Origin: Thermanaerosceptrum fracticalcis | Lineage (GTDB): Bacteria > Bacillota > Peptococcia > DRI-13 | Assembly: GCF_000746025.2 (NCBI RefSeq) | Contig: NZ_CP045798.1 | Coordinates: 544,501 to 608,500, forward strand | Length of the DNA: 64,000 nt | Direction: 5' to 3' | Notes under the pieces: model-generated | The model's database searches: none | Seen by the model: only the letters and a program-made list of their open reading frames with translations | What the model was told of the DNA's origin: nothing | Shown here: positions 34,015 through 62,487 of the stretch, in pieces | Position numbering within the stretch: the stretch's first letter is position 1 | How the letters are laid out: each line of letters opens with the position of its first letter | Program-made: the position numbers and the translations under genes

Positions 34015-34232
34015 TCCAGCAAGCCTGGTTGATTAGCCCCCTTACGAAAGTAAGGAGCCGTTCAAAGGGAATGACATAGGCACTCCGGGGTACTCCACAC
34101 GCTCCGGACACTGCGGCTGGTGGTTAAACATCGCTGATGGGCAGGCGAAGTGCTGCCAGCAAAAACCCCTTTGAACAAGGGCGAAGTGGACCAACAGCCG
34201 CAAGGCTGACTTATCTCAGAAAGAGGGATACT
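34015..34232 (+). ncRNA. Omega RNA-like leader of iscB-1
   Basis: The 220 bases between the left-end hairpin and iscB-1 are non-coding, GC-rich and structured. They share with the leader of iscB-2 the core GGTTAAACA-C-CTGA-GGGCAGG-GAAGTGC and flanking stems. IscB proteins use such an upstream omega RNA as guide scaffold. Exact 5' and 3' ends cannot be read from sequence. Confidence 0.6.
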
Positions 34233-35122: not shown

Positions 35123-36611
35123 TCAACCACCCCGGACTGAAGTCCGAGGCTTGTAAGCCTCTGGTTAACCAGCCTCAGCTTGGAAAGAGCTACGTTAGAA
35201 GGGTCAAGACACCCTGGGATGCGTGCCCAAGTTCCAGGCTCCGTCGTCGGCGGTTAAACAGCTCTGAGGGGTAGGAGCAGTGCCGTCGATGTAAAAAGCC
35301 TTTCTAACATTGGCGATGGGCAATTTACTCTGAAAGGAGGTAGGCTATTTGTTAGTCTATGTGCAAAACAAACACGGTAAACCTTTGATGCCGTGCAGTC
35401 CGAGGAAGGCAAGGCTGCTTCTGAAACAGAAAAAGGCCAAAGTTATCAAAAGAACGCCGTTCACCATACAACTTATCTACGGTTCCAGTGGATACAAACA
35501 GGCCGTAAGTTTAGGGGTAGACGCCGGGAGCAGGACTATAGGTTTATCCGCCACTACTGTAAAGAAAGTATTGTATGAAGCAGAAGTCGAGCTAAGGAAC
35601 GACATAACAAAACTGCTGGCAGACCGAAGGGAGTTAAGAAGAAGCAGAAGATATCGCAAGACAAGATACCGCAAGCCGAGGTTTGATAACCGCAGGCGAC
35701 CAGAAGGCTGGCTGGCTCCTTCTGTCAGGAACAAGATTGAAGCACACACAAAAGCAGTACAAATGGTATGCAAGATGCTACCTGTGACCAAGATCACTAT
35801 TGAGGTAGCCAGTTTTGACATCCAGAAGCTCAAGAATCCCGAAATATCTGGCGTCGAGTACCAGCAGGGAGAGCAGTTGGGATTCTGGAATGTCAGGGAA
35901 TACGTCCTGTGGAGAGACGGTCATCAGTGTCAAGGTAGACCGGGATGCAGGAACAAGGTCTTGAACGTACACCACATAGAAAGCCGCAAGACCGGGGGAG
36001 ATGCCCCGAACAACTTGATAACTTTGTGTGATCAGTGCCATAAGGACTACCATACAGGGAAACTAAAACTCAACCTCAAACGAGGTCAATCTTTCAAGGA
36101 TGCGGCTTTTATGGGAATTATGCGTTGGATGGTTTACAACAGGCTAAAGACAATATATCCATATGTGCGACTTACTTATGGATATATCACCAAACACACC
36201 AGAATTGCCAATGGCTTAGAGAAAAACCATCGCACTGATGCTCGCTGCGTCAGCGGCAATCCGCAGGCACAACCCGACAACACCTGGTACTACTTCAAAC
36301 AGGTACGGAAACAGAACAGGCAGCTTCATAAGGCAAACCCTATCAAGAGAGGGATTTGGAAAGCAAACAAAGCACCGAAATACCTGTTTGGATACCAACT
36401 GTTTGACAAGGTGCTGTACGAAGGGCAGGAGTGTTTCATCTTTGGTCGCAGGGCCAGCGGGTATTTTGATTTAAGGAAACTGGACGGGACAAGAGTAAGT
36501 CCGTCGGTTAGTTGTAAAAAACTAAAACTGCTCGAAAGAGCAAGCATATTTCTATGCGAAAGGAGGAACAGCGACTTCCTCCCCGGAATGAATTCCGGGG
36601 TTTCCGTCGCC
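35123..36611 (+). mobile_element. Inner iscB (IS200/IS605-type) element inserted in iscB-1
   Basis: The left end TCAACCACCC plus hairpin CCGGACTGAAGTCCG matches the outer element's left end in layout; the right end has CCCCGGAATGAATTCCGGGG. Removing 35123-36611 joins the two halves of iscB-1 in frame (SHVS-NFYDAFVIAGG). About 1.49 kb, with an omega-RNA-like leader and a full-length iscB-2, no TnpA. Boundaries are inferred; a few bases either way would change the junction residues. Confidence 0.7.
35150..35348 (+). ncRNA. Omega RNA-like leader of iscB-2
   Basis: About 200 structured non-coding bases before iscB-2, containing GGCGGTTAAACAGCTCTGAGG and GAGCAGTGCCGTC, aligned with the equivalent block before iscB-1. 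Ends are approximate. Confidence 0.6.
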
Positions 36612-36614
36612 TAA
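35349..36614 (+). CDS. iscB: IscB-2, full-length RNA-guided nuclease
   Basis: A 421-aa IscB with every catalytic element: PLMP domain (KPLMPCSPRKARLLLKQKKA), RuvC-I Asp (SLGVDAGSRTIGLS), bridge helix (LRRSRRYRKTRYRKPRFDNR), RuvC-II Glu (TIEVASFDI), HNH (CQGRPGCRNKVLNVHHIE, CDQCH) and RuvC-III (LEKNHRTDARCV, His and Asp), then a C-terminal beta-rich domain. TTG 35349 is 7 nt after AAAGGAGG. The last residues read into the right-end hairpin and the stop TAA is formed at the element-host junction. Known IscBs cut DNA under omega RNA guidance and probably help retain their transposon. Confidence 0.9.
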   Translation: MLVYVQNKHGKPLMPCSPRKARLLLKQKKAKVIKRTPFTIQLIYGSSGYKQAVSLGVDAGSRTIGLSATTVKKVLYEAEVELRNDITKLLADRRELRRSRRYRKTRYRKPRFDNRRRPEGWLAPSVRNKIEAHTKAVQMVCKMLPVTKITIEVASFDIQKLKNPEISGVEYQQGEQLGFWNVREYVLWRDGHQCQGRPGCRNKVLNVHHIESRKTGGDAPNNLITLCDQCHKDYHTGKLKLNLKRGQSFKDAAFMGIMRWMVYNRLKTIYPYVRLTYGYITKHTRIANGLEKNHRTDARCVSGNPQAQPDNTWYYFKQVRKQNRQLHKANPIKRGIWKANKAPKYLFGYQLFDKVLYEGQECFIFGRRASGYFDLRKLDGTRVSPSVSCKKLKLLERASIFLCERRNSDFLPGMNSGVSVA

Positions 36615-38632: not shown

Positions 38633-40645
38633 ATGGCTTTCAATATCTTCAAAAAACACAAAGAACCGGAACAGGCAAACAAAAAAACAATCAAGGCGGG
38701 CAAGAACAACAAAACCGGATTGTATGAGGGCAAGCCGGAGCCTGTGGATTTCATCGCTCCTTCAATAGCCAAGGAACTATTGCCCGCCGACCGGGCGGAA
38801 GGGTACACCGTGGGCGACTACATGGTGGAGATAGGCGGCACGGCTGTTCCATGCAGGTACTACAGGTCCTTTTTTGCTGAGATAATGAGCGGCAACACCT
38901 GGGGCGGGATGCTGGACGACCTTGGCAGGGGCAACTTCGGTGACGGCGACGTGGACATCGCCATCCATGTCCGGCCTGCTTCTTCGGATATGGAACTTCA
39001 AGAACTGAGCCGGAGGCTGAGAGGCTTGATGTCGGACCTGGCCTTTGAGGGCGACCCTTCCAAGATTGATGCCATCAGGGACGAGATTGAGGACATCAAG
39101 ACCCGCCAGAAAAAGCTGCGGATGGAGATTGAACGCTCGTTCAAGACCACTATCCAGGTTATTGCCAGCGGGACCGAGCTAAAAAGCTTCAAGATGTACT
39201 GCAACGCCCTGGTCAAAAGGTTTGCGGGAAAATCCATCTATCTTCGTCCTGCCGACGGCAAACAGCTTGAGGCGTTGAGGGGCATCCTGCCCATAGTTCC
39301 TCCCCAGCCGGTCACCGGCGAACATGGCATAACCCTGGAATCTTCCAACCTGGCCGATCTCTTTCCTTTCGCCCAGGGCGGGATAAGCCACAAGACCGGC
39401 ATCATCCTGGGCTTGGACGGTTTGGGCCGTCCCGTATACTTCGACCAGTGGCACCCTTCTTTGCCCAATCAGCACATGATCATCCTGGGCCGGTCCGGGG
39501 CCGGGAAAACCTACACCACCCAGATCATCATGCACAGGAGCATGCACATAGGCCGCACGGTGGCCGTATTGGACTGGAAGGGCGAACACAAGGACTTTTT
39601 CCTGCTCAATGACCTGCCGTACATAGAGTTTCACGAACATTCGCAAGACAGAATAAACCCCTACGACGTGGAAGTTACCCAGGATGTGGACGGAATCCGG
39701 TTTATTGACATTGAAAGCGTGGCCAACAACGTCCAGGCCCTCGTGTTCAAGATGATAAGCACATATGACAGGGAAATCCTGACCGGACGGGTGAAGGTTT
39801 TCATCGGGGAGGCCATAAGGCAGCAATACGAGGAAGCGGGGATAACCAAAGACCCTCGGAGCATTTACCTGCGTACCGTCACGGACGGCAAAATTTCCAC
39901 AAACAAAAAGAAGCCCATGCCCGAACTGGGCGGTTTGTATCTCAAGATGGCCGCAAGCGAACACGAAGAAGTAAGGAAAGCCGCAGAGATGCTGAAACCT
40001 TTTACCAGACACGGCTCCAGCCCTTCCTACGCTATCTTTGACGGCCAAAGCACGGTGGAACTGAAGGGGTATCCGGGTTATGGTTTTGCGTTGAACCGGC
40101 TGGACAAGGACGTGATGCGTCCCATCGGGCTTTCAGCTATAGCCATCTGGCTCAACGAAAACTTTGCCAAGTCCGATGTCAGTCAGGAAAAAATAATCGT
40201 GATTGAGGAGTGCCAGAACATCTTTGACGACCCGGACGTAGGCGGTCCCTTTGCGGAAACGGCCTACCGGGAGTACCGGGCCACCAACACCGGCGTGTGT
40301 GCCGTAACCCAGGGCCTGGAGGTTTTAAGCCGCACCAATGCGGGGATTGCGGCAGTAAAAAACTCGCCTATAAAAATCATCGGCAAACAGGAATCTTTCG
40401 ATATTGAAGCCATCCAGGGCAAGCTCAACCTTTCCGAAGGCGAGGCCGCCTTTTTGCTGGGGGCCAAGACGGGCCAACTCATCCTGAAAGTGGAGGACGA
40501 ATCGGACATAGTCCTGACAAAAGCCTCGGACTATGAGCACATGATGTTTACCACCAACCCCAACGATCCGGCTTATTACAAACGCAAGGAACTGTTGAAA
40601 AAGAAATACGGCGAGAAAGGAGAGGAAGGGGGAAATGAGCGGTAA
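38633..40645 (+). CDS. VirB4/TraC-like conjugation ATPase
   Basis: A 670-aa hexameric ATPase of type IV secretion. The N-terminal 270 residues resemble VirB4/CagE N domains. The ATPase core has Walker A LGRSGAGKTYTTQ (near residue 285), the following AVLDWKGEHKDF strand, Walker B IIVIEECQNIFDD, and the C-terminal motif ATNTGVCAVTQGLEVLSR. ATG 38633 has SD GGGGGGAGGG. It overlaps the VirB6-like gene by 11 nt. It would energise pilus or channel assembly at the inner face of the membrane. Confidence 0.9.
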   Translation: MAFNIFKKHKEPEQANKKTIKAGKNNKTGLYEGKPEPVDFIAPSIAKELLPADRAEGYTVGDYMVEIGGTAVPCRYYRSFFAEIMSGNTWGGMLDDLGRGNFGDGDVDIAIHVRPASSDMELQELSRRLRGLMSDLAFEGDPSKIDAIRDEIEDIKTRQKKLRMEIERSFKTTIQVIASGTELKSFKMYCNALVKRFAGKSIYLRPADGKQLEALRGILPIVPPQPVTGEHGITLESSNLADLFPFAQGGISHKTGIILGLDGLGRPVYFDQWHPSLPNQHMIILGRSGAGKTYTTQIIMHRSMHIGRTVAVLDWKGEHKDFFLLNDLPYIEFHEHSQDRINPYDVEVTQDVDGIRFIDIESVANNVQALVFKMISTYDREILTGRVKVFIGEAIRQQYEEAGITKDPRSIYLRTVTDGKISTNKKKPMPELGGLYLKMAASEHEEVRKAAEMLKPFTRHGSSPSYAIFDGQSTVELKGYPGYGFALNRLDKDVMRPIGLSAIAIWLNENFAKSDVSQEKIIVIEECQNIFDDPDVGGPFAETAYREYRATNTGVCAVTQGLEVLSRTNAGIAAVKNSPIKIIGKQESFDIEAIQGKLNLSEGEAAFLLGAKTGQLILKVEDESDIVLTKASDYEHMMFTTNPNDPAYYKRKELLKKKYGEKGEEGGNER

Positions 40646-42458
40646 AAAAACCTTATTTATTCTGCTCCTTGCCTGCTATCTTCTAACGAGCGTTATAATA
40701 CCGACAAAAGCTATAGACTACTACGACTATGAAGCCGGAGTATTTGAAATAAAGGACAAACAGACAGAAACAGACAAAGACAACATCGAATCCCTGATCT
40801 ACAACTCGGAGACCAGGGAATATTACCAAAAAAACAAGCCCGGCTACATGGAGAGGGCTGTGGCTTCCTTCATAATCTCCGTGATAAAGTGGATTATGAA
40901 CACCTTCCATGTGGCAGACCCGGTGGTTTTAATTTTTGGCAAAAACCTGGGAACGGAGGATGAGCAAGCCACCCTGTCGGGCTTTCTGGGCAGCGGGAAC
41001 AAAGACGATCTGATACTGGGCATTTTCCCGGAACCTTTCTTTAAAGGCATATCAGTGCTTTACACAATCTTTGAAAAACTGCTGCCCTTCCCTTTGGCGA
41101 TTGCCGTAATTCTACTGGCTGTCCTATTAATGATGGGGGCAGGCACCATACAAGGCAGAACCCGGGTCAAAGACAACGTGGCAGCCATTTTTATAGCCCT
41201 GATTCTCTTGCGTTTCGGGCACTATATCTGGAGTTGGCTTATAGAAATAAACAACTTTCTGATTGACCTTATCTGGGCCTACATGCTGGACAGCGGCGTA
41301 AAGCCGGGTGCCCTGATGGACATAATCTGGGGCGGAAAAACCGGTTTTGAAGGTGCGGCTTCCATGAACACCATTTCCGTGGCCATACTCTTGTTCATGG
41401 CCGCCATGATGATCCTGGCCCTGAATTTCCAGTACGTCATGCGTGCCATTATCCTGGGCCTTTTAATCGCCATCTTCCCTTTGGTTGCGGCACTTTCTGT
41501 CTTTCCTTCCTTCCGGGGATCGCTGGAGTCCTGGTTCCAGGAATTTTTCGCCAACACCATCATCCAACTGGCTCATGCCGTGGCTTTGGGCGGGTTTTTC
41601 ATCATTCTTTACACGCCCGGGATCGGAAAGGGCGGCATATTCTGGCTGATGCTGGTGTATTTCATGGGCTTGCCTGCCATAGCTGGCCTGGTAAGGTCCA
41701 TGCTGGGTCTTAAAGCGGGTTTTGGCGGCATAATGGGAGGGGTGGCCGGTATCGGAGGGATGCTCGGCGGCATAGGCGGCAAGTCAGGCAAGGCAGGCGG
41801 CCCGAAAGACAAGATGCCTGGCCCTGTGTTGGACGAAAAGGGGCAGACATCTTCCGGAGGCGGCTTTAAACCCAAAACCGGGGCTCAGACGACTGTCGGC
41901 AAAGTGCTGCAAGGAGCCTACAACATGGCGGGCAGGGTGATGTCCAGCAATGCGGCAAGGACTGCCGCCAGGATGGGCGTGGGAGCAACGGCAGCCGTTG
42001 CCGGCGGCGTTTTGTCGGGCATGTTGACGGGCGATTTCGCTTCCGGGGCCAGAGCGGGAAAAAACTTGAGCCAGTCGGCAATGAACGGTCTGGGCTGGGT
42101 GGGCGGAAAGGTATCAACAATACTGGACAAGATGAAAGGACCATCAACCAATCTGCCGGAATACCGGGAGAACAAGAAAATTATGGACATGGCCCAGGAA
42201 AACATGAACAAGACGAAACCACAGTTGGACCTGGCATATGCCCAATGGAAACATGCCGAGGCGTACCATAGCAAGGGGTCCCCGGAGATAAACGAGGCAT
42301 ACAAAAAGTATGACGAAATCCGTACCCAATACAAAAAAAACCAGGCGGACGAACTTCTGGCCCGCACAAGGCTGACCACCATGGGTTACATCAAGGAAAA
42401 AGCCGCCCCTTTGAATAGCAGCAACGCCTCTTATTCGGAGCGAAGGGGGCGGGTGTAA
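40635..42458 (+). CDS. VirB6/TrbL-like polytopic channel protein
   Basis: A 607-aa membrane protein with a signal-like start (LFILLLACYLLTSVIIPTKA), an external acidic segment, then six to seven membrane helices between residues 150 and 370 (such as AIAVILLAVLLMMGAGTI and AIILGLLIAIFPLVAALSVF). A Gly-rich stretch (GGIMGGVAGIGGMLGGIGG) leads to a charged cytoplasmic tail. Layout and position between VirB4 and a peptidoglycan peptidase fit the VirB6/TrbL channel component. ATG follows GGAGAGGAAGGGGG. Confidence 0.8.
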   Translation: MSGKKTLFILLLACYLLTSVIIPTKAIDYYDYEAGVFEIKDKQTETDKDNIESLIYNSETREYYQKNKPGYMERAVASFIISVIKWIMNTFHVADPVVLIFGKNLGTEDEQATLSGFLGSGNKDDLILGIFPEPFFKGISVLYTIFEKLLPFPLAIAVILLAVLLMMGAGTIQGRTRVKDNVAAIFIALILLRFGHYIWSWLIEINNFLIDLIWAYMLDSGVKPGALMDIIWGGKTGFEGAASMNTISVAILLFMAAMMILALNFQYVMRAIILGLLIAIFPLVAALSVFPSFRGSLESWFQEFFANTIIQLAHAVALGGFFIILYTPGIGKGGIFWLMLVYFMGLPAIAGLVRSMLGLKAGFGGIMGGVAGIGGMLGGIGGKSGKAGGPKDKMPGPVLDEKGQTSSGGGFKPKTGAQTTVGKVLQGAYNMAGRVMSSNAARTAARMGVGATAAVAGGVLSGMLTGDFASGARAGKNLSQSAMNGLGWVGGKVSTILDKMKGPSTNLPEYRENKKIMDMAQENMNKTKPQLDLAYAQWKHAEAYHSKGSPEINEAYKKYDEIRTQYKKNQADELLARTRLTTMGYIKEKAAPLNSSNASYSERRGRV

Positions 42459-42464
42459 AGACTG

Positions 42465-43814
42465 ATGCAAAGCGACGAACTTTACAGGCAGGCTGACGAG
42501 GAAGCCCGGAGGATAACGGGCACAGCCGCAAGGTACGGCAAGAAAATCCTTGGAAAAGTTGCCAAAAAAGTTGCATTAAAGACCCTGAAAGTTCTTTTTC
42601 TGATCCTCAAGATGACAGCTCCCGTGTGGGTGCCCCTTGTTTTGATCCTGGTGCTGGCCTTTGGCACCCACATGCTCCTTTACGGATTCGCCAAAGAAGC
42701 AACAGACGGCGGCCCGCCGGACAAAAAGACGGTTATTGCGGCCTTTTTCGGTGTCTTGGAAGATGAAGTCACCGAAGCCAACGAGCGTTTGTTTGACGAA
42801 TACAAAAAGCTGGCCGCCAAATGGAGCCAGGGTTTGAGCAAAGAGCAAAAGGAACAAGTCGTGGCCCATGCCTTGCCCTGGTCCGTTTTGCTGGCGACCG
42901 ACAGGGTGGTCAACGACGCCGCCGTCTGGGAAGGCAAGGAGAACGTAACCCTCCAGCCCTTGCAGGTGTTCGAGGCACTGCGGCCCAGGTTCAAGTGGAA
43001 AGAATCGGAAGTGATAACAACAACTGTTACATATACGGATAAAGGGACGGTAACTTCAACAAGCACACGCAAAGTAACCCTTGTAACCGAGGCAGACACT
43101 TTTGAAGGTCATTTCGATTATGTATACGAATGGCAGACGGAAATCGTAGAAAGAAGCAGCAGCGGGTATGTGTCGGTCAAAAAAGAAGTGCTTAAGGAAG
43201 TAAAACCTCCCGCAGAATACTACATACCCTGGAAGCAGTACTTGTCAAAAACAAGAGGAATCGAGGACCAGCTAACCATAGACCACTTGCAGGAGCTCGC
43301 CATCCTTTATGACGAGGACTATCAGTTCAGCCATGCGTTGACGGTGGGTTTGGATTACAGCACTTATCCGGTGATAGAAGGTTCTAACGGATGGATATGG
43401 CCCACACCGTCCACGAGAATAACCAGTCCCTTTGGGCCCAGGGCATACCCCAGGCCGGGCTTTCATCACGGGATCGACATAGGAGCCGTAAACAGAGGGG
43501 TGAGCGGAGACCCGGTTTACTGCATTGATGACGGAGAAGTGTTGGAAGCAGGTTTTTCGGTTATCTACGGGCGGTACGTCATAGTGAAACATGCAAAAGA
43601 CGTATTTACATGCTACGCTCACTTGGACCAAAGGAAAGTCAAGGAATATCAAAAAATCAAAAAAGGTGATCTGATTGGCACTATGGGCTCAACCGGTTTT
43701 TCAACGGGCGTTCATTTGCATTTTGAAATAAGACAAGGGAAAAGACCCCTTGACCCCAGGTTTTATTTTCCGCAAATTTTCTCTGAAAGGAGTGTTGGTG
43801 TTGAGGTTGAATAA
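42465..43814 (+). CDS. Membrane-anchored M23 peptidoglycan endopeptidase of the T4SS
   Basis: A 449-aa protein: a basic amphipathic N-terminus, one membrane anchor (about 50-72), an extended outer region, and a C-terminal M23/LytM domain. Zinc ligands are visible in GFHHGIDIGAVN (His, Asp) and TGVHLHFEIRQG (HxH). Before it, WPTPSTRITSPFGPRAYP is the standard LytM lead-in. It should open the cell wall for the conjugation channel, as VirB1-like or CwlT-type enzymes do in Gram-positive ICEs. Start ATG 42465, 6 nt after the virB6-like stop. Confidence 0.88.
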   Translation: MQSDELYRQADEEARRITGTAARYGKKILGKVAKKVALKTLKVLFLILKMTAPVWVPLVLILVLAFGTHMLLYGFAKEATDGGPPDKKTVIAAFFGVLEDEVTEANERLFDEYKKLAAKWSQGLSKEQKEQVVAHALPWSVLLATDRVVNDAAVWEGKENVTLQPLQVFEALRPRFKWKESEVITTTVTYTDKGTVTSTSTRKVTLVTEADTFEGHFDYVYEWQTEIVERSSSGYVSVKKEVLKEVKPPAEYYIPWKQYLSKTRGIEDQLTIDHLQELAILYDEDYQFSHALTVGLDYSTYPVIEGSNGWIWPTPSTRITSPFGPRAYPRPGFHHGIDIGAVNRGVSGDPVYCIDDGEVLEAGFSVIYGRYVIVKHAKDVFTCYAHLDQRKVKEYQKIKKGDLIGTMGSTGFSTGVHLHFEIRQGKRPLDPRFYFPQIFSERSVGVEVE

Positions 43815-44205
43815 AAAAGCCGTCTTGTTGCTTGTGATTATGTTGATATTTACTCTTTCAGCTCCTGTTTGGGCAAATGAACAGCAAAACAAGAAATTCT
43901 CGGAAATCCTTTCAAAGAAAGACGGGATAGGAGAAATAAAGCCTTTGGATTTTGACAAGCTGGGCGACAAGGTTATGAGCTTGGGCGATAAAATATTTGA
44001 ATTCTTGCAAAAAGGAAGTGTTCCCTTGCTGGCAATCGGGATGGGGATTGCCGTAGTCAGTTTATTCATTGGAATCTTCGTCGGCAAAGCCATAAAGACC
44101 GGAATATGGGGCATAGTCATATCTTTTGCCGTATACTACCTGATAAACTACATGCCGGAGACGGTAATGACCATAAAACAAACGGTCATTGGCTTTTTTA
44201 AGTAG
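43801..44205 (+). CDS. VirB2-like two-helix membrane protein
   Basis: A 134-aa protein with a signal peptide (AVLLLVIMLIFTLSAPVWA), a polar stretch (NKKFSEILSKKDGIGEIK) and two hydrophobic helices (VPLLAIGMGIAVVSLFIGIF and GIWGIVISFAVYYLINYMP). It resembles the VirB2-like protein at 33458 in layout, not clearly in sequence, so it may be a second pilin or channel subunit. TTG 43801 is 8 nt after AAAGGAG (GTG 43798 is an alternative). It overlaps the peptidase gene by 14 nt. Confidence 0.7.
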   Translation: MRLNKKAVLLLVIMLIFTLSAPVWANEQQNKKFSEILSKKDGIGEIKPLDFDKLGDKVMSLGDKIFEFLQKGSVPLLAIGMGIAVVSLFIGIFVGKAIKTGIWGIVISFAVYYLINYMPETVMTIKQTVIGFFK

Positions 44206-44220: not shown

Positions 44221-46218
44221 TTGAGAATCCACCTGGTTTATGAAGTCGATTACCTTGAACAGTTAAAAGAAATGTTAGGGGAGGCGGGCCATGAAATAGC
44301 AGGCTGGGACTATTCCCTGCCGTTGTTCGCCGACTTTTCTGAGAAAAAAACGGTTGATGCTGACCTGGCCTTGATTGACGGGCAGGCAGGGGTGACGGAA
44401 AAAAGGGAGATCATGGAGGCCCTGGGCAGAATTCGTAAAAACCTGCCGGAATTGAGGCTGGTCGTCATATTTCCTACCGTTTTGGAAAAAGACGAGAAAT
44501 TCAAAGAAAAGCTGTTGTCGTACTCCTTGTATGACATGTATTTCCGGGACGAGTACGATATTGACGACTTGGAGCATTGGTTTGGAAATCCCAAAACCTA
44601 CGGAAATTATGACATACAGACGGACGACATAGCAGGGACATTGCCGCAAAGAGAGCCTGTTCAAGCGTCAAAAAAACAGGAGGAGCGGGGCGGGCTTCTG
44701 AAAAAAGGAATTGATACTCTCTTGAAGATAAACCTTAAAGAGAAATTTGCTAAAAAAGAATCGTCTGAGAAAGAAGATACGCATGAGACAAAAACGGGGG
44801 CTTTCGCCTCTGATTTTTTTGTCCCTCCTCAAGATAGAAATGTCTATGCAACAGCGAAAAAAAAGCAAAAAAAGCCTGTGGTTTACTCATGGGACATGGA
44901 ATACGAGGGTGTAACGGCTTTCAAGGATATTGGACAGTTGTTTGCCCTGGCCGAAATGGTAAGGCCGGACTTTATCCTGATGCCGGGCCATAAAGAAGAA
45001 GTGGCCGAAAAAATCAGGGAAATAAAGAGGCATAAAAAACTGTGGGACCTTCCCGTGGTGGTGGTTGGAAACATCAGCCACGAGCTTTTTAAGGCAGGGG
45101 CCGATGAATGTTTGCCGGAGTGGAATGATGACAGCTTCGGGTTATTGGCACCCAAACTGGACAGTTTGAGATTGATTAAAGAGATGAGCAAAAGCGAGGC
45201 ACTGAAAGACCCCTTGACAGGAGCTTATAACCGGCTTTTCATGGAAGAACTCCTTGATAAGTCAATTCGGGAATACAACATGCACGGGGTGCCTTTTTGC
45301 GGTTTGTTTTGCGACCTGGACTATTTCAAGAGGCTTAACGACACATATGGGCACCAGGTTGGAGACGATGTCCTTAAAGCCTTTGTGTCTTTCCTGAACG
45401 AAAACACAAGGAGCGGAGACTTTGTAACAAGATATGGCGGCGAAGAATTTTTGCTCCTGTTTTCCGCAACAACAGCCAAAGAGATGGCTTGCAAGATTGA
45501 CAACATGCGTCTTGCCTGGCAGGAAAAAGACCTGTACGGGTCCACTTTCAGCGGGGCGTTGGCCGATTACCTGGGCGAAGGGAAAGAGTTGTTTTTGCGG
45601 AAACTGGACGAAGCCCTCTATATGGCGAAGAACGCAGGCAGAAACAGGGTGATATACGTTGAAGAAGATGAAAGCATAAGCCCGCCTGCAGATTTGCGGT
45701 GCACGCCGGGAGGCGGTTTTCAAACGAGCGTTTATGCTGTGGCCGGGGCTGCTCCGAGAGTGGGGGCTACCAGTTTTGCCTTGATGCTGGCCAAAGAGTT
45801 TGCCTTGAAATATCCCGTGGAAATCCTGGATGCGGGAGGCGGTGCTTATGACTGGCTGGGAGGGCGTGGGGCAAAGAACATAAACGTGAGAAAAGCACCG
45901 CCGTACAGCATTACGCCCGGCGTTGTGACGATAATAGACGCAGGAACCGGGGTGCATGACGAGCTGAAGCCTTTCGTCGAAACGACCTTTGTCGTAACGG
46001 ATATGTCCAAAAAGGCCGTTTATATAAAAAATCTTGTCAAGGGCCCGGCCTGGCTTGTCGGCAACAGGTGCGTAAATGACATAAAAAAACTCGGCCAGAC
46101 CTGGGGTTTGCCGGTTCTTTTGGAAATCAAGCATGAGGAAGGAATCAGGGAAGCCGAAAAAAGGGGGACATTTCCTGAGATAAAAAGCGTAAGTAGAATA
46201 TTAAAAGCCCACATTTAA
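44221..46218 (+). CDS. REC-like/GGDEF/TadZ (ParA-like) fusion: c-di-GMP synthase coupled to a pilus ATPase homologue
   Basis: A 665-aa protein. Residues 1-130 and about 220-320 look like receiver-type domains. Residues about 329-470 are a GGDEF diguanylate cyclase with DPLTGAYNRLF, DLDYFKRLNDTYGHQVGDD, active site RYGGEEF and an RSGD inhibitory site five residues before it. The C-terminal 160 residues resemble a ParA/TadZ ATPase with a degenerate P-loop (GAAPRVGATSFALMLAKEF) and VVTIIDAGTG as Walker B-like strand. TadZ/CpaE proteins place Tad pili in the cell, so this chain could link c-di-GMP production to pilus assembly. TTG 44221 has SD AGGGGGGCG. No such fusion is known to me. Confidence 0.85.
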   Translation: MRIHLVYEVDYLEQLKEMLGEAGHEIAGWDYSLPLFADFSEKKTVDADLALIDGQAGVTEKREIMEALGRIRKNLPELRLVVIFPTVLEKDEKFKEKLLSYSLYDMYFRDEYDIDDLEHWFGNPKTYGNYDIQTDDIAGTLPQREPVQASKKQEERGGLLKKGIDTLLKINLKEKFAKKESSEKEDTHETKTGAFASDFFVPPQDRNVYATAKKKQKKPVVYSWDMEYEGVTAFKDIGQLFALAEMVRPDFILMPGHKEEVAEKIREIKRHKKLWDLPVVVVGNISHELFKAGADECLPEWNDDSFGLLAPKLDSLRLIKEMSKSEALKDPLTGAYNRLFMEELLDKSIREYNMHGVPFCGLFCDLDYFKRLNDTYGHQVGDDVLKAFVSFLNENTRSGDFVTRYGGEEFLLLFSATTAKEMACKIDNMRLAWQEKDLYGSTFSGALADYLGEGKELFLRKLDEALYMAKNAGRNRVIYVEEDESISPPADLRCTPGGGFQTSVYAVAGAAPRVGATSFALMLAKEFALKYPVEILDAGGGAYDWLGGRGAKNINVRKAPPYSITPGVVTIIDAGTGVHDELKPFVETTFVVTDMSKKAVYIKNLVKGPAWLVGNRCVNDIKKLGQTWGLPVLLEIKHEEGIREAEKRGTFPEIKSVSRILKAHI

Positions 46219-46233: not shown

Positions 46234-46443
46234 TTGAGCGAATTTGATCTTGTCCTGAATGTTCTTGCAAACGCCAAAAAAGTTGCTCTGGCCTACCGCA
46301 AGGCATGTGCCACGGATGCGGCAGCCGGGTTTTTCAGAAACGAGGAGACCAGGGAGCTCCAGGCCGCACTGCACGACCTGGAGGATTCCATTAACAAGAT
46401 TAACGATGTAGTGAAAAGAAGGAGATGGGACAATGCCTGTTAA
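46234..46443 (+). CDS. Small hypothetical protein
   Basis: A 69-aa, highly charged, mostly helical protein (LANAKKVALAYRKACATDAA, ELQAALHDLEDSINKINDVV) with no recognised domain. TTG 46234 is 8 nt after GGGAGG; TTG 46228 is too close. It overlaps the CpaB-like gene by 11 nt, so it belongs to the operon. Confidence 0.6.
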   Translation: MSEFDLVLNVLANAKKVALAYRKACATDAAAGFFRNEETRELQAALHDLEDSINKINDVVKRRRWDNAC

Positions 46444-47125
46444 GTTCAGTATTGACAAAGAAAAAAGAAAAGGAGTTGTGTTTATCCTTATAGCCCTGCT
46501 TTGCGGCGTTGTGGCCGCAGGTTTTGTTTTGGGCCTGGCCGTGAAAATGTCGCCGAAAGTACCGGCATTGGAGGCTGTGGTGGAGATTGCGGCGGGGACT
46601 CCGTTGGACAGGAGCCAGTTCAGGGAGATAAAACTGCCTGAAGCGGGGCTGCCGTCCGAGATAATACATCCGAACACCGATTTAAAAGGGAAGATAGCAG
46701 CCCGGACGATGGTGCCGGGTGATATACTTCGCCATCTCGTGACCATAGACCTGGAAAAGGGGGTTAGCCCCTCGCTTCTGAGTGCCCGGCTGAGGGCCCT
46801 GAACGATCCGGAACTGCGGGCTGTGGAAATACCCGTAGAGAGTGTGAAAAACATGCTGGGAGGCATGAAATCCGGAGACCGGGTTGACATAGTGGCCGTT
46901 TACGTTGATGAAACAGCATCCGGTCCCGTAAAAAAATTGATCTCCCAAACCATCATGGAGGCTGTTCCCGTCTTGGGGCTTAGATCGGAAGATTCCGGCA
47001 GTGCTTCAGGCGGCGGGCAAGCCGGGGCCCTGATAGCGGCCATGAAGAAGGAGCAGGTGGAAACTTACGCATTGTATAGGGAAAAGGGCCGGATTTATGC
47101 CTCGTTGAGACCATACAACCAGTGA
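46433..47125 (+). CDS. CpaB/RcpC-like pilus assembly protein (SAF domain), copy 1
   Basis: A 230-aa protein with an N-terminal membrane anchor (VVFILIALLCGVVAAGFVLG) and a SAF domain (AVVEIAAGTPLDRSQFREIK, ARTMVPGDILRHLVTIDL), followed by the RcpC-type RAVEIPVESVKNMLGGMKSG and GDRVDIVAVYVDE. CpaB/RcpC proteins belong to Tad (Flp) pilus machines and sit outside the membrane. SD AGAAGGAGA precedes ATG. This is the first clearly Tad-type gene after the T4SS-type block. Confidence 0.85.
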   Translation: MPVKFSIDKEKRKGVVFILIALLCGVVAAGFVLGLAVKMSPKVPALEAVVEIAAGTPLDRSQFREIKLPEAGLPSEIIHPNTDLKGKIAARTMVPGDILRHLVTIDLEKGVSPSLLSARLRALNDPELRAVEIPVESVKNMLGGMKSGDRVDIVAVYVDETASGPVKKLISQTIMEAVPVLGLRSEDSGSASGGGQAGALIAAMKKEQVETYALYREKGRIYASLRPYNQ

Positions 47126-47142
47126 GCAGGAGGGGAAAAGAA

Positions 47143-48492
47143 ATGAAAACAGAAGGAAGCACAGTTCACCTGGCGATTGCCGACCATGACATGGAATGGA
47201 TGATGCAGGCCCTTCAGGGCTTGAACAGCCACAAGCAGATAAAAGTTACGGTGTTTGCCAATACGGGCCGGGACCTGGTGGAAAGAGTTGCCTCAATGGA
47301 TGTCGATGCCGTGCTGATGGAATATTCAATGCCGGACATGACGGCGGTAGAGGTTGTAAAAAAACTGGCGGAAGATTCTCCAGGGACACTAATTTTTGCC
47401 GTCACTAACTCCTTGACCGAACAGCTTTTGCGGACGGCTAAAAGTGCCGGGGTCAAGGAAGTCTTTTTCAAGCCCAACTTCTCACCTGCCGAAGCCGGGA
47501 ACCGCATAGTGGCCGAAGTTGACGCCTTCCGGAGGGAACTGAGTCTGGCCGCCCAAAAACACGGGCGGATCGAAAAAGGCACAGGCCCTATCGGGGTGAA
47601 AATCCAGAAGGAATATGTAACCCGTACCCTAAAACAGGTGGTGGTGCTGACCCACAACATCAAGGGCGGGGTAGGGAAATCCACTATAGCCGTCAACTTG
47701 GCGGCAGCCATCAAAATGAGCCCTTACTACTCCGGCCAAAGAGTTTGTCTGGTGGACTTTGACTGCGGCGGGGCCAATGTAGCCACCTATTGCCACATAA
47801 ACGATAACGCCACATATAACAGAAACATCTATAACTGGCTGAGCGTTTCTCCGGACGTATCCGCAAGAGAGGTGGAGGAGATGCTCATAAAAGGTCCCCA
47901 GGGCATAATGATTGCGGCGGCACCCATCAACCTGGCCCATGCGGAGAAGATAAGCTATGACCTGGCGGACAAGATACTGAAAATACTCAAAAACTACTTT
48001 ACGGTGATAGTGATAGACGGGGCACCCAACCTTTCAGCCCCCATAGATTCCGCCATGCTCCACGCAACCCATATTTTGCTTGTGGCCAATGCGGAAGGGC
48101 AAAGTGTAAGGCAGTTGGCCAAAACGGTGGCCCTGTTTTCCCCTGAGCCTGATTTTCCCGAAAAACCCGACATGAGCCACATCTTGAATAAAATGTTCTT
48201 GGTCGTCAACTACGCCCAGGCTCCTACGGAATACGACTTGAAGAAAGCCGATATAGCGAGCGTCGTGGGCAGACCGTTGATTGCCGAAATTCCGTATGAC
48301 AAAACCGTGAGGAAAGCCTTGCACGGACCATATGAAAAAGTGGCGGTGGAACTTGATCCTGGTTCCGACTTCTCTCTTGCCATAAAGAAGTTGTCCAACG
48401 ATATTTGCGGAGCCTATCCGGACGGGATCAGGGGAGAGGATGACGAGAAAAAACCCTCTAAGGGGCTTTTCAGCAGGCTTTTGGGGAGATGA
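47143..48492 (+). CDS. TadZ/CpaE-like pilus localisation ATPase
   Basis: A 449-aa protein: a receiver-like N-terminal domain (about 1-125, with the acidic site altered to VLMEYSMPDM) and a ParA/MinD-type ATPase with deviant Walker A NIKGGVGKSTIAVNLAA and RVCLVDFDCGGANV. TadZ/CpaE proteins localise the Tad pilus at the membrane. ATG 47143 has SD AGGAGGGG; GTG 47122 overlaps the cpaB stop and is less likely. Unlike the TadZ-like part of the 44221 protein, its P-loop is intact. Confidence 0.88.
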   Translation: MKTEGSTVHLAIADHDMEWMMQALQGLNSHKQIKVTVFANTGRDLVERVASMDVDAVLMEYSMPDMTAVEVVKKLAEDSPGTLIFAVTNSLTEQLLRTAKSAGVKEVFFKPNFSPAEAGNRIVAEVDAFRRELSLAAQKHGRIEKGTGPIGVKIQKEYVTRTLKQVVVLTHNIKGGVGKSTIAVNLAAAIKMSPYYSGQRVCLVDFDCGGANVATYCHINDNATYNRNIYNWLSVSPDVSAREVEEMLIKGPQGIMIAAAPINLAHAEKISYDLADKILKILKNYFTVIVIDGAPNLSAPIDSAMLHATHILLVANAEGQSVRQLAKTVALFSPEPDFPEKPDMSHILNKMFLVVNYAQAPTEYDLKKADIASVVGRPLIAEIPYDKTVRKALHGPYEKVAVELDPGSDFSLAIKKLSNDICGAYPDGIRGEDDEKKPSKGLFSRLLGR

Positions 48493-48498
48493 TGGAAT

Positions 48499-49287
48499 TT
48501 GCGGCCGATCATGCGATACCCTGGAGCCAAATGGCGGTTGGCCCGGTGGATTATTGAACAGATGCCCTCGCATAAAGTTTACCTTGAGCCATATTTTGGA
48601 AGCGGGGCGGTTCTTTTCAACAAGGAGCCGCAAGGGGTTGAGATTATTAACGACATTGACGGGGATGTGGTTAATTTGTTCAGGGTTATGCGGGAAAAGC
48701 CCCGGGAGCTTGCCATGTTGGTTGAATTAACGCCATGGGCCCGTGATGAGTACGAAAACAGTTATTTTAAAACGGGGGACAGTTTGGAGGATGCCAGAAG
48801 ATTCCTCGTGAGGTGCTGGCAGGCATATGCGACGAGAACAAAATACAAAACCGGATGGAGGCACACATCCTATGGAAAATCTTCATACATGCCCGATCTG
48901 TGGGCCTCGATACCGGAAAGAATAATACAAGTTGCCAGGCGACTAAAAACTGTCCAGATCGAGAACATGGACGCTGTCGATCTCATCGAAAAACACAATC
49001 ACCAATCCGTACTGATATATGCCGATCCGCCGTATACTTTGGACACCAGGAACAAGCTGCTGTATGCCCACGATATGGACTTAAAGGGCCACGAAAAACT
49101 GCTTGACGTGCTGCTCCGGCATAAAGGTCCGGTTATGTTGAGTTCTTATGAAAACGAGCTTTACAACCAAAAACTGGTAGGTTGGTTCAAAAAAAAAATA
49201 ACAACTGTTGCTGAGAAAGGGCAAAAAAAGGAGGAAGTAATTTGGACCAATTTTTCTTACACCCGACAAACTATTTTCAATTTTTAG
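48499..49287 (+). CDS. D12-class N6-adenine DNA methyltransferase (orphan)
   Basis: A 262-aa Dam-like methyltransferase: MRYPGAKWRLARWI, the AdoMet motif EPYFGSGAVLFNKE and the catalytic DPPY in IYADPPYTLDT. No endonuclease gene adjoins it. It sits within the Tad-like operon between tadZ and a membrane-protein gene. It may mask the element's DNA from restriction or mark it. The start is TTG 48499 or ATG 48511 (MRYPGAK); spacing slightly favours the TTG. It differs clearly from the second methyltransferase at 55123. Confidence 0.88.
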   Translation: MRPIMRYPGAKWRLARWIIEQMPSHKVYLEPYFGSGAVLFNKEPQGVEIINDIDGDVVNLFRVMREKPRELAMLVELTPWARDEYENSYFKTGDSLEDARRFLVRCWQAYATRTKYKTGWRHTSYGKSSYMPDLWASIPERIIQVARRLKTVQIENMDAVDLIEKHNHQSVLIYADPPYTLDTRNKLLYAHDMDLKGHEKLLDVLLRHKGPVMLSSYENELYNQKLVGWFKKKITTVAEKGQKKEEVIWTNFSYTRQTIFNF

Positions 49288-49312: not shown

Positions 49313-50107
49313 ATGCTAGGTTTGTCTGAATTTGGCTTTTCGCTTATGCTCACAATAGTTTATTTTATTATTCTTTTCTTTATTGTTCATTTTGACTTGT
49401 TTCATGTCTTTGGTGCCTTGCACATTGTCGGTTTGACTTTCCAAACAGGACTGACATATCGGGCCTGGCTCGGAAAGCCTGTTGACATTTGGTCATATTT
49501 GCCGTCGTTTATGATCTTGGGAATTTACTTGTTGTTTTTGTTGTTTTCCGAATACACGTTATACAAAGACAGGAAAAGAAGAAAAATGTTGTGTAAAAAA
49601 TTTGAAGGAAAACCGTTTCCAAAAATATTTACGTTTTTTGGGAATAATGAGGTCTGGGTCGTAAATATTCCCGAAGCAAAGACACTTGCCTTGAAACACA
49701 CACTTGAGACAAAAAATCCCGTCAGCATACATATAACCCTTTTTGGTTACGAGTGGTGGTGGGCCGAAGAAGAAGGGATCGATATGAACGATGTTCAAAC
49801 CAGATTCAAACTGCTCAAAAAGGAAGAAGAAAAAGAAGCAAAAAATGACGCCTTGAGCGATGAGGATTTGTTGGATTTGGCCGAATGTTTCTTTGAAAGC
49901 CCCAAGGTCGGGGTTTTCTCCATCAGTCTGGACAGCAATGGTAAGAAAAAACTGGTAAAAGATTTCGAGGAGAATGGGTTCAATTTTGTAGAAACCGAAA
50001 AATTCAAAGAAACCGTAAGAGATTATCATAACTTCATCCTGATCCAAAAAAGCGAATTGGTGGAGAAGGGGGAGAGATTGGATTGGACGTTCCAAAACGA
50101 TTTATAG
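49313..50107 (+). CDS. Membrane protein of unknown function in the Tad-like cluster
   Basis: A 264-aa protein with three hydrophobic segments in the first 90 residues (SLMLTIVYFIILFFIVHF, HIVGLTFQTG, FMILGIYLLFLLFSEY) and a cytoplasmic charged domain (WWWAEEEGIDMNDVQTRFKL; a K/E-rich helix; FSISLDSNGKKKLVKDFEE). I do not recognise it. SD AGGAGGGG precedes ATG. The AT-rich base composition and codon use look different from its neighbours. It overlaps cpaF by 25 nt. Confidence 0.65.
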   Translation: MLGLSEFGFSLMLTIVYFIILFFIVHFDLFHVFGALHIVGLTFQTGLTYRAWLGKPVDIWSYLPSFMILGIYLLFLLFSEYTLYKDRKRRKMLCKKFEGKPFPKIFTFFGNNEVWVVNIPEAKTLALKHTLETKNPVSIHITLFGYEWWWAEEEGIDMNDVQTRFKLLKKEEEKEAKNDALSDEDLLDLAECFFESPKVGVFSISLDSNGKKKLVKDFEENGFNFVETEKFKETVRDYHNFILIQKSELVEKGERLDWTFQNDL

Positions 50108-51405
50108 AACTGGCGGCGATGCGGTCCGCCTTGGATGAGTTATCCAAAACGGACTGGGACATCCTGCGTAAAAAAGCCCAGGAAAGGGCCATGCAGAAAG
50201 TCCCCAGGGAATACCTGGGCAAGTACCGGGACCCGGAAGCCAAAAAACTGGTGAAATACCAGGTACTTGAAGTTATCGAAGAATATAAGCCGGGCTTGGA
50301 TATAAACGTCAGGCAAACACTAGCGGAAAGATTGACCAATGAAATATCGGGCTACGGGCCTTTGGAAAAACTCCTGGACGACAAGGAAATAACGGAAATT
50401 CTCATAGAAAGGTGGGACAAGGTGGTTATAGAAAAAGACGGGATTTTGCAGGAAACCGATATAAAATTCGACTCTGAGGAACACCTGGCCCTCATTGTCG
50501 AGAGGATGATAACGCCGTTAGGCCGGAGGCTGGACTATTCGTCGCCGATGGTGGACGCAAGACTTCCGGACGGGTCCCGGATCAATGCCGTGGCTCCGCC
50601 TGTGGCCGTACACGGCTTACAGGTTGCCGTAAGGAAATTCAAGCCCAACTTGAGCATGGAAAACCTGATCGAATACGGGGCCGTAAGCCGGGAACTGGCC
50701 GAAGCACTCAAGGCTTGCGTGCAGGCAAGAATGTCTTTTGTCATCAGCGGCGGCACCGGCAGCGGAAAATCCACTTTTCTGAACGCCCTGGCGGAATTCA
50801 TCCCTCGTCATCTTTCGATTATAACCATTGAAAACCCCGTGGAACTCAGGCTAAACCATCCCAGGGTGCGGTCCTGGGAGGCCAAGCCGCCCAATATCGA
50901 GGGGAAAGGCGAAATAAACCAGTTGGCCTTGGTTATAAACGCATTACGGGCCAGGCCGGACATAATCATCGTAGGCGAGGTAAGGGGTCCTGAAGCCTTT
51001 GCTTTATTGCAGGCCCTTAATACGGGTCACTCCGGCAGCATGACCACCGCCCACGCCAACAATACCGTGGATGCCATGAAAAGGCTGGTCTCGATGGTAG
51101 CCTCCGCAGGGCAGTTATCTCCAGCCCTTATTCCCGCATATGTGGCATCGGGGATTGATATGGTCGTGCAGTTGTCGAGGATGCCGGACGGCAGCCGAAA
51201 GCTCCTGGAAGTGGCGGAAGTCGTAGGCGAAGAAAACGGAGAAGTGGTCATAAACCCGTTGGTCAAGTATGTTGTAGACGGATATGACGAAAAAGGCAAA
51301 GTCGTAGGTCGCTGGGAAGAAACCGGCAACCGATTTACAAGGCTGCACAGATTCAAAGAGGCGAAAGTGGAGTGGCCGGGCTGGCTGGGAGGTGGGCAGG
51401 ATTGA
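50083..51405 (+). CDS. CpaF/TadA-like secretion ATPase, copy 1
   Basis: A 440-aa AAA-type ATPase of the type II/IV secretion (VirB11/PilB-like) superfamily, CpaF branch. Marks are the N-terminal NEISGYGPLEKLLDDKEITE, LDYSSPMVDARLPDGSRINA, Walker A ISGGTGSGKSTFLNAL, the Asp box IIVGEVRGPEAFALLQALN and the His box GSMTTAHANNTVDAMKRL. It powers Tad pilus assembly. TTG 50083 follows GGGGGAGAG; the tadB gene overlaps its stop (TTGA). A second CpaF-like gene begins at 63313. Confidence 0.92.
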   Translation: MDVPKRFIELAAMRSALDELSKTDWDILRKKAQERAMQKVPREYLGKYRDPEAKKLVKYQVLEVIEEYKPGLDINVRQTLAERLTNEISGYGPLEKLLDDKEITEILIERWDKVVIEKDGILQETDIKFDSEEHLALIVERMITPLGRRLDYSSPMVDARLPDGSRINAVAPPVAVHGLQVAVRKFKPNLSMENLIEYGAVSRELAEALKACVQARMSFVISGGTGSGKSTFLNALAEFIPRHLSIITIENPVELRLNHPRVRSWEAKPPNIEGKGEINQLALVINALRARPDIIIVGEVRGPEAFALLQALNTGHSGSMTTAHANNTVDAMKRLVSMVASAGQLSPALIPAYVASGIDMVVQLSRMPDGSRKLLEVAEVVGEENGEVVINPLVKYVVDGYDEKGKVVGRWEETGNRFTRLHRFKEAKVEWPGWLGGGQD

Positions 51406-52301
51406 TAGGAGGCGTAATATCCGCCATAGCCGTAATGTTTATGGTGGTATTGTTGTTTTTAGGCATCAAGATAGTAACGGAAAAAGGTTATTCCGCAACC
51501 CGGTTCGGTTTGCAAAGATATGACCCTCAAAAAGACGAGCACCTGCAAAAAGCCAAAAAGGTTCACACCAAGAAGAAAGAACGGCTTAAAATGTCGCTGT
51601 CTCAAAGAGTGGGTTTGATATTGAGCGGCGGTTTTTTTCTGGGCTTTGTGGCTTTTGCCGTCACGGGGAGCGGTGTAATTACAACTATCTCTGCTCTGGG
51701 CGGTTTTTTGATGCCCTTGTTGCGGGAAAAGAGAATCATAAAGTCCAAAGAGAGGCTGTATTCCTCTCAGGTTGAGCAGGCGATGGAGACCATATCAATG
51801 GTCATCAGATCGGGCGGCGACATAACCGAAGGCATGGAACGTGCAGCCAAAGAAGTGGGGGAGCCGTTCCGGGCCGTATTGCTTAAAGCTGTTGACGAAC
51901 TGCGGTTGGGCAAGCCAGAGGTGGAAGTTTTTCAGGAGATGGCTGCCAAAACCCCTGTTCCCGAACTGGAGATGTTATCTATTGCAACGATGTTGAAAAA
52001 AGAGGGTTTGGTAATAAACACCACCAACGTTATGAGCAGTATTCAGCACAGCATACGGGAAAGACAGGCTTACACCGAAGAAGTGCGGGTAATGACCACC
52101 GAGAACCGCCTGGCCGTTTGGATAGTATCCATTATACCCTTTGTGCTGATTGCCATAATGCGAAACCTTATGCCCGGCTTCCGGGAAACGCTTTTTGAAA
52201 ATGCTTTGGGGATAGTCTTTTCTTTTCTTATGTTTACAACCATCATCGGAGGTGTGGCATGGGCGTTGAATATAGCGGACGTAGAGAAGGAGCTGCTGTA
52301 A
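51402..52301 (+). CDS. TadB-like pilus inner-membrane protein
   Basis: A 299-aa protein with an N-terminal membrane segment, two middle ones and two C-terminal helices (WIVSIIPFVLIAIM and VFSFLMFTTIIGGVAWAL) around a T2SSF (GspF-like) domain (QAMETISMVIRSGGDITEGM-type segment). TadB and TadC form the membrane platform turned by CpaF. TTG 51402 overlaps the cpaF stop and follows GGGAGGTGGG, so it is translationally coupled. Confidence 0.87.
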   Translation: MIGGVISAIAVMFMVVLLFLGIKIVTEKGYSATRFGLQRYDPQKDEHLQKAKKVHTKKKERLKMSLSQRVGLILSGGFFLGFVAFAVTGSGVITTISALGGFLMPLLREKRIIKSKERLYSSQVEQAMETISMVIRSGGDITEGMERAAKEVGEPFRAVLLKAVDELRLGKPEVEVFQEMAAKTPVPELEMLSIATMLKKEGLVINTTNVMSSIQHSIRERQAYTEEVRVMTTENRLAVWIVSIIPFVLIAIMRNLMPGFRETLFENALGIVFSFLMFTTIIGGVAWALNIADVEKELL

Positions 52302-52534
52302 ACATCTTTGCGATTCACAAAAAAATAGCCTTGTTGCGGGCCAGGCTTCTCGAATCCGGGGAAAAGTACGGGCTTTTGGCCCCGCAAACGGTTTTGCTGA
52401 GCCAGGAACTGGACCGGCTCGTAGTGCTTGTGCAAAAAAAATTGAAATCCGAAAGGGGGGCATTGGTTTTTGAGTGCGTACTTTGCGGCATGGTTGGCCT
52501 TTTTAGGGACATTGTTTTTATTCTTCGGGCTTGA
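52259..52534 (+). CDS. Spo0E-like aspartyl-phosphate phosphatase
   Basis: A short ORF between tadB and tadC encodes NIFAIHKKIALLRARLLESG followed by LLSQELDRLVVLVQKK. The SQELD motif and two-helix pattern are those of Spo0E-family phosphatases, which dephosphorylate Spo0A and block sporulation onset. The frame is 91 aa from ATG 52259 (SD GGAGGT) and overlaps tadB by 43 nt and tadC by 65 nt. The conserved part is residues 15-62; a start closer to NIF would need a non-canonical codon. The overlaps and small size leave some doubt, but the motif is specific. Confidence 0.6.
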   Translation: MGVEYSGRREGAAVNIFAIHKKIALLRARLLESGEKYGLLAPQTVLLSQELDRLVVLVQKKLKSERGALVFECVLCGMVGLFRDIVFILRA

Positions 52535-53339
52535 ACTGCGTAAAAACGATTCGATTCTTGAAGTGTATTTGAAACCCTTTGAAAAGGAGAGGACCGGGCT
52601 TAAAGACATCGATTGGAAGGACGTATCCGAAAGGATCGGGCCTGTCGTAACCTCCCTTGTTCCTGTGTTCAACCTGGAAAAGATTAAACAAAAACTCGTG
52701 TGGGCCGGTAATCCTTACGGATTGACGGAGGCGGGCTTTGTGGGCATAAAAATATGTCTTGGTATTACGGGTCTTTTGTTCGCCATAACCGCCGCCATGC
52801 TGGGAATCCCTTTGATACTAGGGCTTATGTTGACCGTTTTGCTTTATTTTCTGCCTGACGCTTTGCTTCACAGCAAAATGGAGAAAAGAAAAAAGGCCAT
52901 ATACAACTCCTTGCCCAACATGATCGGGCTTTTGGGGATGGCGGTAAATGCCGGCTTGGAGATAAGCACGGCCTTTGAAACCATAGCCCGACGTTACCCG
53001 CCTCCCTTGGGGGACGAGCTGAGGCTTGCCTGGCGTGAGATGGCAACAGGCCGGGCACGGTCGGCAGCGTTGAGGGATATAGGGAAAAGGACGGGGGTGA
53101 GTGCTGTTTCCAGGTTTTTTGAGTCCATAGTAGTAGCGGAGGAAAGGGGTGGTACGAACGTATCCGCAACCATTGACGATTTCAGGAGGGAGCTTTCCGA
53201 CTCCCAGCGGAGAAAGATGCAGGAGGAAGCCAAAAAGATACCGACAAAGATGCTGTTGCCCTTGATGCTGTGTATATTCGTGCCTTTGGTTTTGCTTTTG
53301 CTGGTTCCTATCGGGATAAGTTTGATTAAGACATTGTAA
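52470..53339 (+). CDS. TadC-like pilus inner-membrane protein
   Basis: A 289-aa T2SSF-domain membrane protein: an N-terminal helix, a helix pair near 95-130 (LGITGLLFAITAAMLGIPLI), the conserved SLPNMIGLLGMAVNAGLEIS and AFETIARRYPPPLGDELRLA region, VVAEERGGTNVSATIDDFRR, and a final helix (PLMLCIFVPLVLLLLVPIG). It is the TadC partner of TadB. TTG 52470 lies 9 nt after AAAGGGGGG. A 190-base AT-rich gap (53340-53529) with no supported gene follows. Confidence 0.87.
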   Translation: MSAYFAAWLAFLGTLFLFFGLELRKNDSILEVYLKPFEKERTGLKDIDWKDVSERIGPVVTSLVPVFNLEKIKQKLVWAGNPYGLTEAGFVGIKICLGITGLLFAITAAMLGIPLILGLMLTVLLYFLPDALLHSKMEKRKKAIYNSLPNMIGLLGMAVNAGLEISTAFETIARRYPPPLGDELRLAWREMATGRARSAALRDIGKRTGVSAVSRFFESIVVAEERGGTNVSATIDDFRRELSDSQRRKMQEEAKKIPTKMLLPLMLCIFVPLVLLLLVPIGISLIKTL

Positions 53340-54409: not shown

Positions 54410-54604
54410 ATGTTTGAAAAAATCAAAAATCTTCTCAAAGAAGAAAGAGGCGTTGAGCTTGTCCAGGTCGCCATCATCATGGGGATATTGGCCGTTTTTG
54501 CCGTAACGGCCTTATTCTTCCTGCGTCAGCCGTTAACCGACCTTTTCGGGAACGTTAAAACGCAGCTTGAGCAAGCAAAAGACGCTCAGGGCGGCATCAG
54601 GTAA
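54410..54604 (+). CDS. Flp/Fap-type prepilin
   Basis: A 64-aa type IVb prepilin-like protein: short charged leader ending KEERG, then the pilin hydrophobic helix VELVQVAIIMGILAVFAVTALFF with Glu at position +2 or so of the mature chain. Size and layout match Flp pilins processed by a TadV-type peptidase (candidate at 61670). ATG 54410 follows AAGGAGG at 9 nt; longer upstream frames cover the previous gene. A terminator follows. Confidence 0.8.
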   Translation: MFEKIKNLLKEERGVELVQVAIIMGILAVFAVTALFFLRQPLTDLFGNVKTQLEQAKDAQGGIR

Positions 54605-62451: not shown

Positions 62452-62487
62452 GTATTTGAAAAAACACAAAAAACAAGGAGGATGGAA

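Follow-up and report, generated by a model that had tools for sequence, protein, structure and literature searches.

PleD, WspR and DgcR, among the known systems closest to the protein considered here, combine a receiver domain, a helix and a GGDEF domain carrying an RxxD inhibitory site. TadZ/CpaE proteins bear a receiver-like sequence and a MinD/ParA-superfamily domain on a single chain, and FlhG/FleN, a further MinD relative that works at a surface machine and regulates flagellar number, is an active ATPase; neither of the two is fused to a GGDEF domain. In Caulobacter, polar placement of the Tad machine depends on CpaE, and Tad and other type IV pili are regulated by c-di-GMP, whose exact influence on pilus assembly and retraction in that organism remains to be shown (PMC6581867). 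Diguanylate cyclases also travel on conjugative elements, as in three SXT/R391 ICEs where they form part of the variable hotspot 3 cargo (PMC2791158). GGDEF domains are likewise present in multidomain polyvalent proteins of phages and conjugative elements, which the parts of that article drawn on here discuss in terms of conflict or host-signal interference, with no description in those parts of a GGDEF-ParA fusion or of a place in a secretion operon (PMC5512222). No paper describing a GGDEF-TadZ/ParA fusion was found in the open-access literature, outside which most subscription journals lie.

Such a fusion is encoded in Thermanaerosceptrum fracticalcis, within the 64,000-nucleotide stretch of DNA analysed here (the window, whose numbering is used throughout), and it recurs beside DNA-transfer/pilus genes in at least nine other species, which suggests that c-di-GMP is made at the transfer machine itself. 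Unlike the SXT/R391 cyclases, the protein is encoded within a secretion operon and ends in a pseudo-MinD domain. The gene and its neighbours are arranged as follows.

38633-40645, + strand: VirB4-type T4SS ATPase (Pfam DUF87 and TraG P-loop)
40635-42458, + strand: VirB6-like polytopic membrane protein, assigned from position and hydrophobicity (no Pfam match; same position in relatives)
42465-43814, + strand: M23 peptidase of the T4SS operon (PF01551, 5.7e-29)
43750-44205, + strand: small membrane protein immediately 5' of the fusion (a similar small ORF is likewise placed in the relative G163)
44221-46218, + strand: fusion gene, with N-terminal domain, receiver-like domain, GGDEF and pseudo-MinD/ParA (665 aa, TTG start)
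46433-47125, + strand: CpaB/RcpC with SAF domain (PF16976, PF08666)
47122-48492, + strand: TadZ/CpaE, a receiver and a canonical MinD/ParA ATPase with KGGVGKS (PF00072, PF13614 (AAA_31), PF01656 (CbiA))
50083-51405, + strand: CpaF/TadA secretion ATPase (PF00437, 3e-54)
51372-53339, + strand: TadB and TadC platform proteins (PF00482)
54410-54604, + strand: Flp-like pilin MFEKIKNLLKEERGVELVQVAIIMGILAVFAV, read from the ORF sequence

The order thus runs VirB4, VirB6-like protein, M23 peptidase, small membrane protein, fusion, CpaB, TadZ, two extra genes, CpaF, TadB and TadC, and the initial annotation was right to place the fusion at a T4SS/Tad junction beside a true TadZ, with its receiver, its AAA_31/CbiA domain and its KGGVGKS motif. 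As judged by eye, the phospho-acceptor aspartate of this TadZ receiver is apparently a glutamate in the window and in G163, and is kept in G188 and G140.

A search for further GGDEF-TadZ fusions, suggested at the outset, returned ten relatives in the phylum, for a total of 11 members with the window protein. It took 1164 genome searches within one phylum, repeats included, to recover these ten, so that the family is sparse in that phylum; outside it, coverage consisted of a single contig scan whose listed matches centred on GGDEF, making it an unfair test for the fusion. No family member was found on viral contigs, and plasmids queried with the C-terminal domain gave one weak, partial ParA match (E 0.3). 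Eight relatives are complete in a single frame (G163, G003, G188, G120, G140, G363, G213 and G152), G261 is interrupted by a contig end, and in G431 (L192:8385-9922) the receiver-like part is encoded in one frame and the GGDEF-pseudo-ParA part in another that overlaps it, through either a frame break or a sequencing error. Because the whole architecture is seen again in independent genomes, a chance or assembly fusion is ruled out. Placed in a tree together with 35 further GGDEF domains, those of the family's 11 members form one group (support 90/93) that is recovered as a clade in 87% of bootstrap trees, the bootstrap being not fully settled, and none of 500 shuffles gave so low a value; the branch leading to the window GGDEF in this tree is long.

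The genomic position of the fusion is conserved along with its architecture. In nine of the 11 members (window, G163, G003, G188, G120, G140, G363, G261 and G213) it lies 3' of the gene for the M23 hydrolase, either adjacent to it or separated by one or two genes, and in six (window, G163, G003, G188, G140 and G431) it is followed by CpaB. The window's gene order is kept as far as TadC in G163, G188 and G140, and a T4SS coupling protein adjoins the fusion in G152. As Tad genes were not seen near the fusion in G363 and G213, the VirB4-VirB6-M23 secretion operon is the most constant neighbour, Tad genes are adjacent in part of the family, and TadZ is not a universal partner. The fusion represents a genuine and conserved version of the receiver-GGDEF cyclases, extended by a pseudo-MinD tail and associated with secretion/pilus operons; its parts in the window are the following.

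44221-44610, + strand: N-terminal domain, residues 1-130, possibly an atypical receiver (profile score near noise; pLDDT < 50)
44866-45195, + strand: degenerate receiver-like domain, residues 216-325, with a helix at 303-328 leading into the GGDEF (model like PleD/DgcR/WspR)
45196-45666, + strand: GGDEF diguanylate cyclase domain, residues 326-482 (PF00990, E=1e-31; pLDDT about 90-98)
45409-45450, + strand: RSGD inhibitory site and GGEEF active site, R397 to F410
45694-46215, + strand: C-terminal pseudo-MinD/ParA domain, residues 492-665 (hhalign against FlhG/ParA profiles 92-97%, E 7e-7 to 1e-10)
45730-45795, + strand: degenerate P-loop region VYAVAGAAPRVGATSFALMLAK, with both deviant Walker A lysines lost

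The reading frame at 44221-46218 (+) is open throughout its 665 aa, and the sole Pfam domain in the protein is PF00990 (GGDEF; 110 bits against a cut-off of 23.8, residues 328-476). The intact GGEEF motif with an RxxD site read from the sequence at first is borne out, with R397-S-G-D400 five residues ahead of G406-G-E-E-F, and the catalytic D365, N373, D382 and K470 do not vary among six aligned family members, so that active-site motif, Mg2+ and guanine residues are all intact. Across the family, GG[D/E]EF is kept in 11 of 11 members and RxxD in ten, the exception being KGAD in G363. D382 is the guanine-reading residue of c-di-GMP-type cyclases, and its retention makes a Hypr-type (cGAMP) cyclase less likely. 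The fusion is apparently an intact enzyme for c-di-GMP, with catalysis predicted from these residues.

A full-length AlphaFold model, for which 15 further sequences were supplied (14 from GGDEF homologues plus the window's TadZ), can be trusted only between about residues 221 and 480, with pLDDT of about 64-87 over residues 221-325. Among PDB structures, the whole model most closely resembles PleD, DgcR and WspR (Foldseek, about 300 columns), and the pre-GGDEF domain and the GGDEF are therefore modelled as a receiver-helix-GGDEF unit of the PleD/WspR type. The family profile matches WspR (3bre) across receiver and GGDEF; searched alone against the PDB, the profile of the pre-GGDEF domain returns mostly receivers, all below significance. 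Unlike PleD, WspR and DgcR, the fusion has no phospho-acceptor aspartate at the acceptor position of this domain in the alignment of six members, and, unlike in TadZ/CpaE, the receiver does not directly precede the ATPase-like domain, since the GGDEF intervenes. The initial annotation had spoken of receiver-like domains in the plural: the one at about 221-325 stands on its PleD/DgcR/WspR-like model, but for the first 130 or so residues a receiver is unsupported, given a near-noise score against receiver profiles and a poor model (pLDDT < 50).

Beyond the GGDEF, Pfam gives no significant match in the C-terminal 180 residues and does not recognise a ParA domain anywhere in the window protein. 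The C-terminal domain also resisted direct modelling (single-sequence AlphaFold, pLDDT 41, with meaningless Foldseek matches), and the fold assignment therefore rests on profiles. A profile of the window and G163 C-termini matches FlhG with 92% probability (hhalign, E 7e-7, 153 columns) and a mixed FlhG/TadZ profile with 96-97% (E 1e-9 to 1e-10), with a score of 48 against 17 for the best column-shuffled control and 12-19 for reversed ones; the second clade (G003, G188 and G120) reaches 80% and 94%. The similarity extends over 153-172 columns and takes in the Walker B-like TIIDAG as well as the GNR and GL segments at the C-terminal end, at two to four times the best control score. In genome searches with the C-terminal profiles, the best matches from outside the family were MinD-type P-loops, many of them from FlhG-like ATPases. 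The C-termini of G363, G261 and G213 match ParA weakly (48%), and that of G152 gave no ParA match in the profile comparison, leaving its ParA nature unsupported. In G140 (L166:7833-10340), pseudo-ParA domains occupy both ends of the chain around the receiver-like and GGDEF parts; the second replaces the N-terminal domain, is nearest to TadZ (94%), and likewise lacks the P-loop lysines.

Taken at the level of profiles, this supports membership of the C-terminal 170 or so residues in the MinD/ParA superfamily with loss of the P-loop lysines. Where MinD proteins read GKGGVGKS, the window protein reads AGAAPRVGATS, and KGG and GK[S/T] are absent from all 11 pseudo-ParA domains examined (drawn from ten of the 11 loci), none of which carries the deviant Walker A KGGxGK[S/T] that is a MinD/ParA hallmark; the window clade keeps the Walker B-like strand TIIDAG. 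The neighbouring TadZ, in contrast, keeps KGGxGK[S/T] in four of four cases examined. The reading of this region as a degenerate-P-loop, TadZ-like ATPase thus holds for the superfamily and for the P-loop, but "TadZ-like" proves too specific: against TadZ alone the match falls to 36% for window and G163, compared with 92% for FlhG, and to 11% for the second clade, so that the domain is closer to FlhG/MinD. Compared with FlhG, it is shorter by about 50 residues, missing between the halves that carry the P-loop and Walker B. The annotation had hinged on the C-terminal domain having a ParA/TadZ fold and no other, and the profiles do return a MinD/ParA match. Its further proposal that a GTP-dependent signal from this protein places the pilus lost its footing, as the P-loop lysines are gone.

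The simplest reading is that of an active, self-limiting cyclase on a non-hydrolysing docking module, because the cyclase and RxxD sites are kept and the ATP-binding lysines are gone while TadZ retains its own. We tentatively favor a model, with a chance somewhat short of even, where a dedicated diguanylate cyclase encoded by the T4SS/Tad mobile element would be held at the secretion/pilus machine by its pseudo-MinD domain and would tune that machine through local c-di-GMP. A degenerate receiver would lead through a helix into an active GGDEF, as in PleD/WspR, and the lysine-less MinD/ParA domain would serve as a protein-docking module anchoring the cyclase at the assembly site, most simply by pairing with TadZ, the active MinD-type ATPase whose gene lies two places downstream, or else with another component of the base. 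Two copies gathered at the site would switch on local, RxxD-limited c-di-GMP synthesis, which in turn could adjust how the transfer/pilus machine is assembled or how active it is. The control of Tad and type IV pili by c-di-GMP and the positioning role of CpaE (PMC6581867) are precedents, and synthesis where the machine is assembled, as initially proposed, is plausible and the best reading. Weighing against the model are the loci with no Tad gene adjacent (G363 and G213), the failed modelling of the C-terminal domain and the unmatched G152 C-terminus. A further point against it is that no recognised c-di-GMP receptor was found on the element among PilZ, GEMM and MshEN: the genome's only PilZ is elsewhere, at 983 kb, Pfam finds no MshEN domain in CpaF, and no GEMM c-di-GMP riboswitch was found in the window or five relatives. 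The family bears on two questions, how c-di-GMP stays local and how it reaches Tad pili, and a cyclase covalently joined to a disabled positioning ATPase in a secretion operon allows both to be addressed directly through constructs of one gene. A further suggestion is that certain conjugative elements bring along a self-limited c-di-GMP circuit dedicated to them and do not draw on that of the host.

The alternative that survives best, possible but doubtful, turns on dimerisation. GGDEF enzymes need dimers and MinD/ParA domains dimerise, so the pseudo-MinD tail might be a mere homodimerisation module aligning two GGDEFs, and the cyclase might give the host a general, non-local c-di-GMP boost, for example for attachment favouring mating. 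The cyclases of SXT/R391 ICEs (PMC2791158) and the members without adjacent Tad genes fit this account, but on its own it leaves unexplained why the gene keeps its place in the T4SS operon, shortly 3' of that for the M23 peptidase in nine of 11, and nucleotide-driven MinD dimerisation relies on the very lysines lost here. An asymmetric MinD-type heterodimer, with TadZ as the active ATPase and the fusion as its dead partner, such that the TadZ ATP cycle would join GGDEFs only at an assembling T4SS/Tad machine, is unlikely; if true, ATP-driven positioning would directly gate c-di-GMP synthesis on a mobile element. We consider it distinctly improbable that the GGDEF acts as a GTP or c-di-GMP sensor in a mainly structural or positioning protein, serving as a second, non-hydrolysing partner of TadZ and having little cyclase activity. 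Comparison of window and G163 does show the C-terminal domain to be no less conserved than the GGDEF (49% and 46%, respectively), and the window GGDEF is on a long branch; yet sensor GGDEFs usually lose the active-site motif, and here catalytic residues and RxxD are intact in nearly the whole family. Least probable is an ordinary P-loop or Rossmann-like C-terminal domain unrelated to MinD/ParA and resembling it only in the first strand-loop-helix, for although PDB sequence searches yield only weak matches, with DnaB beside FleN, and single-sequence modelling failed, the profile alignments run on through TIIDAG, GNR and GL well above controls and the G140 N-terminus bears a further TadZ-like domain.

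The element that carries the fusion is probably mobile. A VirD4-like coupling protein, recognised by sequence only, is encoded about 25 kb beyond the window. Within the window, a DDE transposase gene (23499-24998, + strand) divides a large serine recombinase (22514-25731, - strand; with resolvase, recombinase and zinc-ribbon parts) into two ORFs, and this integrase therefore looks interrupted. Two HEARO RNAs (Rfam RF02033; 33971-34195 and 35122-35328) lie beside RRXRR/HNH-endonuclease ORFs (34137-35156 and 35349-36614), which further ORFs past the window resemble in sequence. D12 adenine methyltransferases are encoded at 48499-49287, between TadZ and CpaF, and at 55123-55965. Finally, a second CpaB/RcpC gene is present at 62419-63159, followed past the window end by CpaF-, TadB-, TadC- and minor-pilin-like ORFs, so that one element may possibly carry two Tad-like sets.
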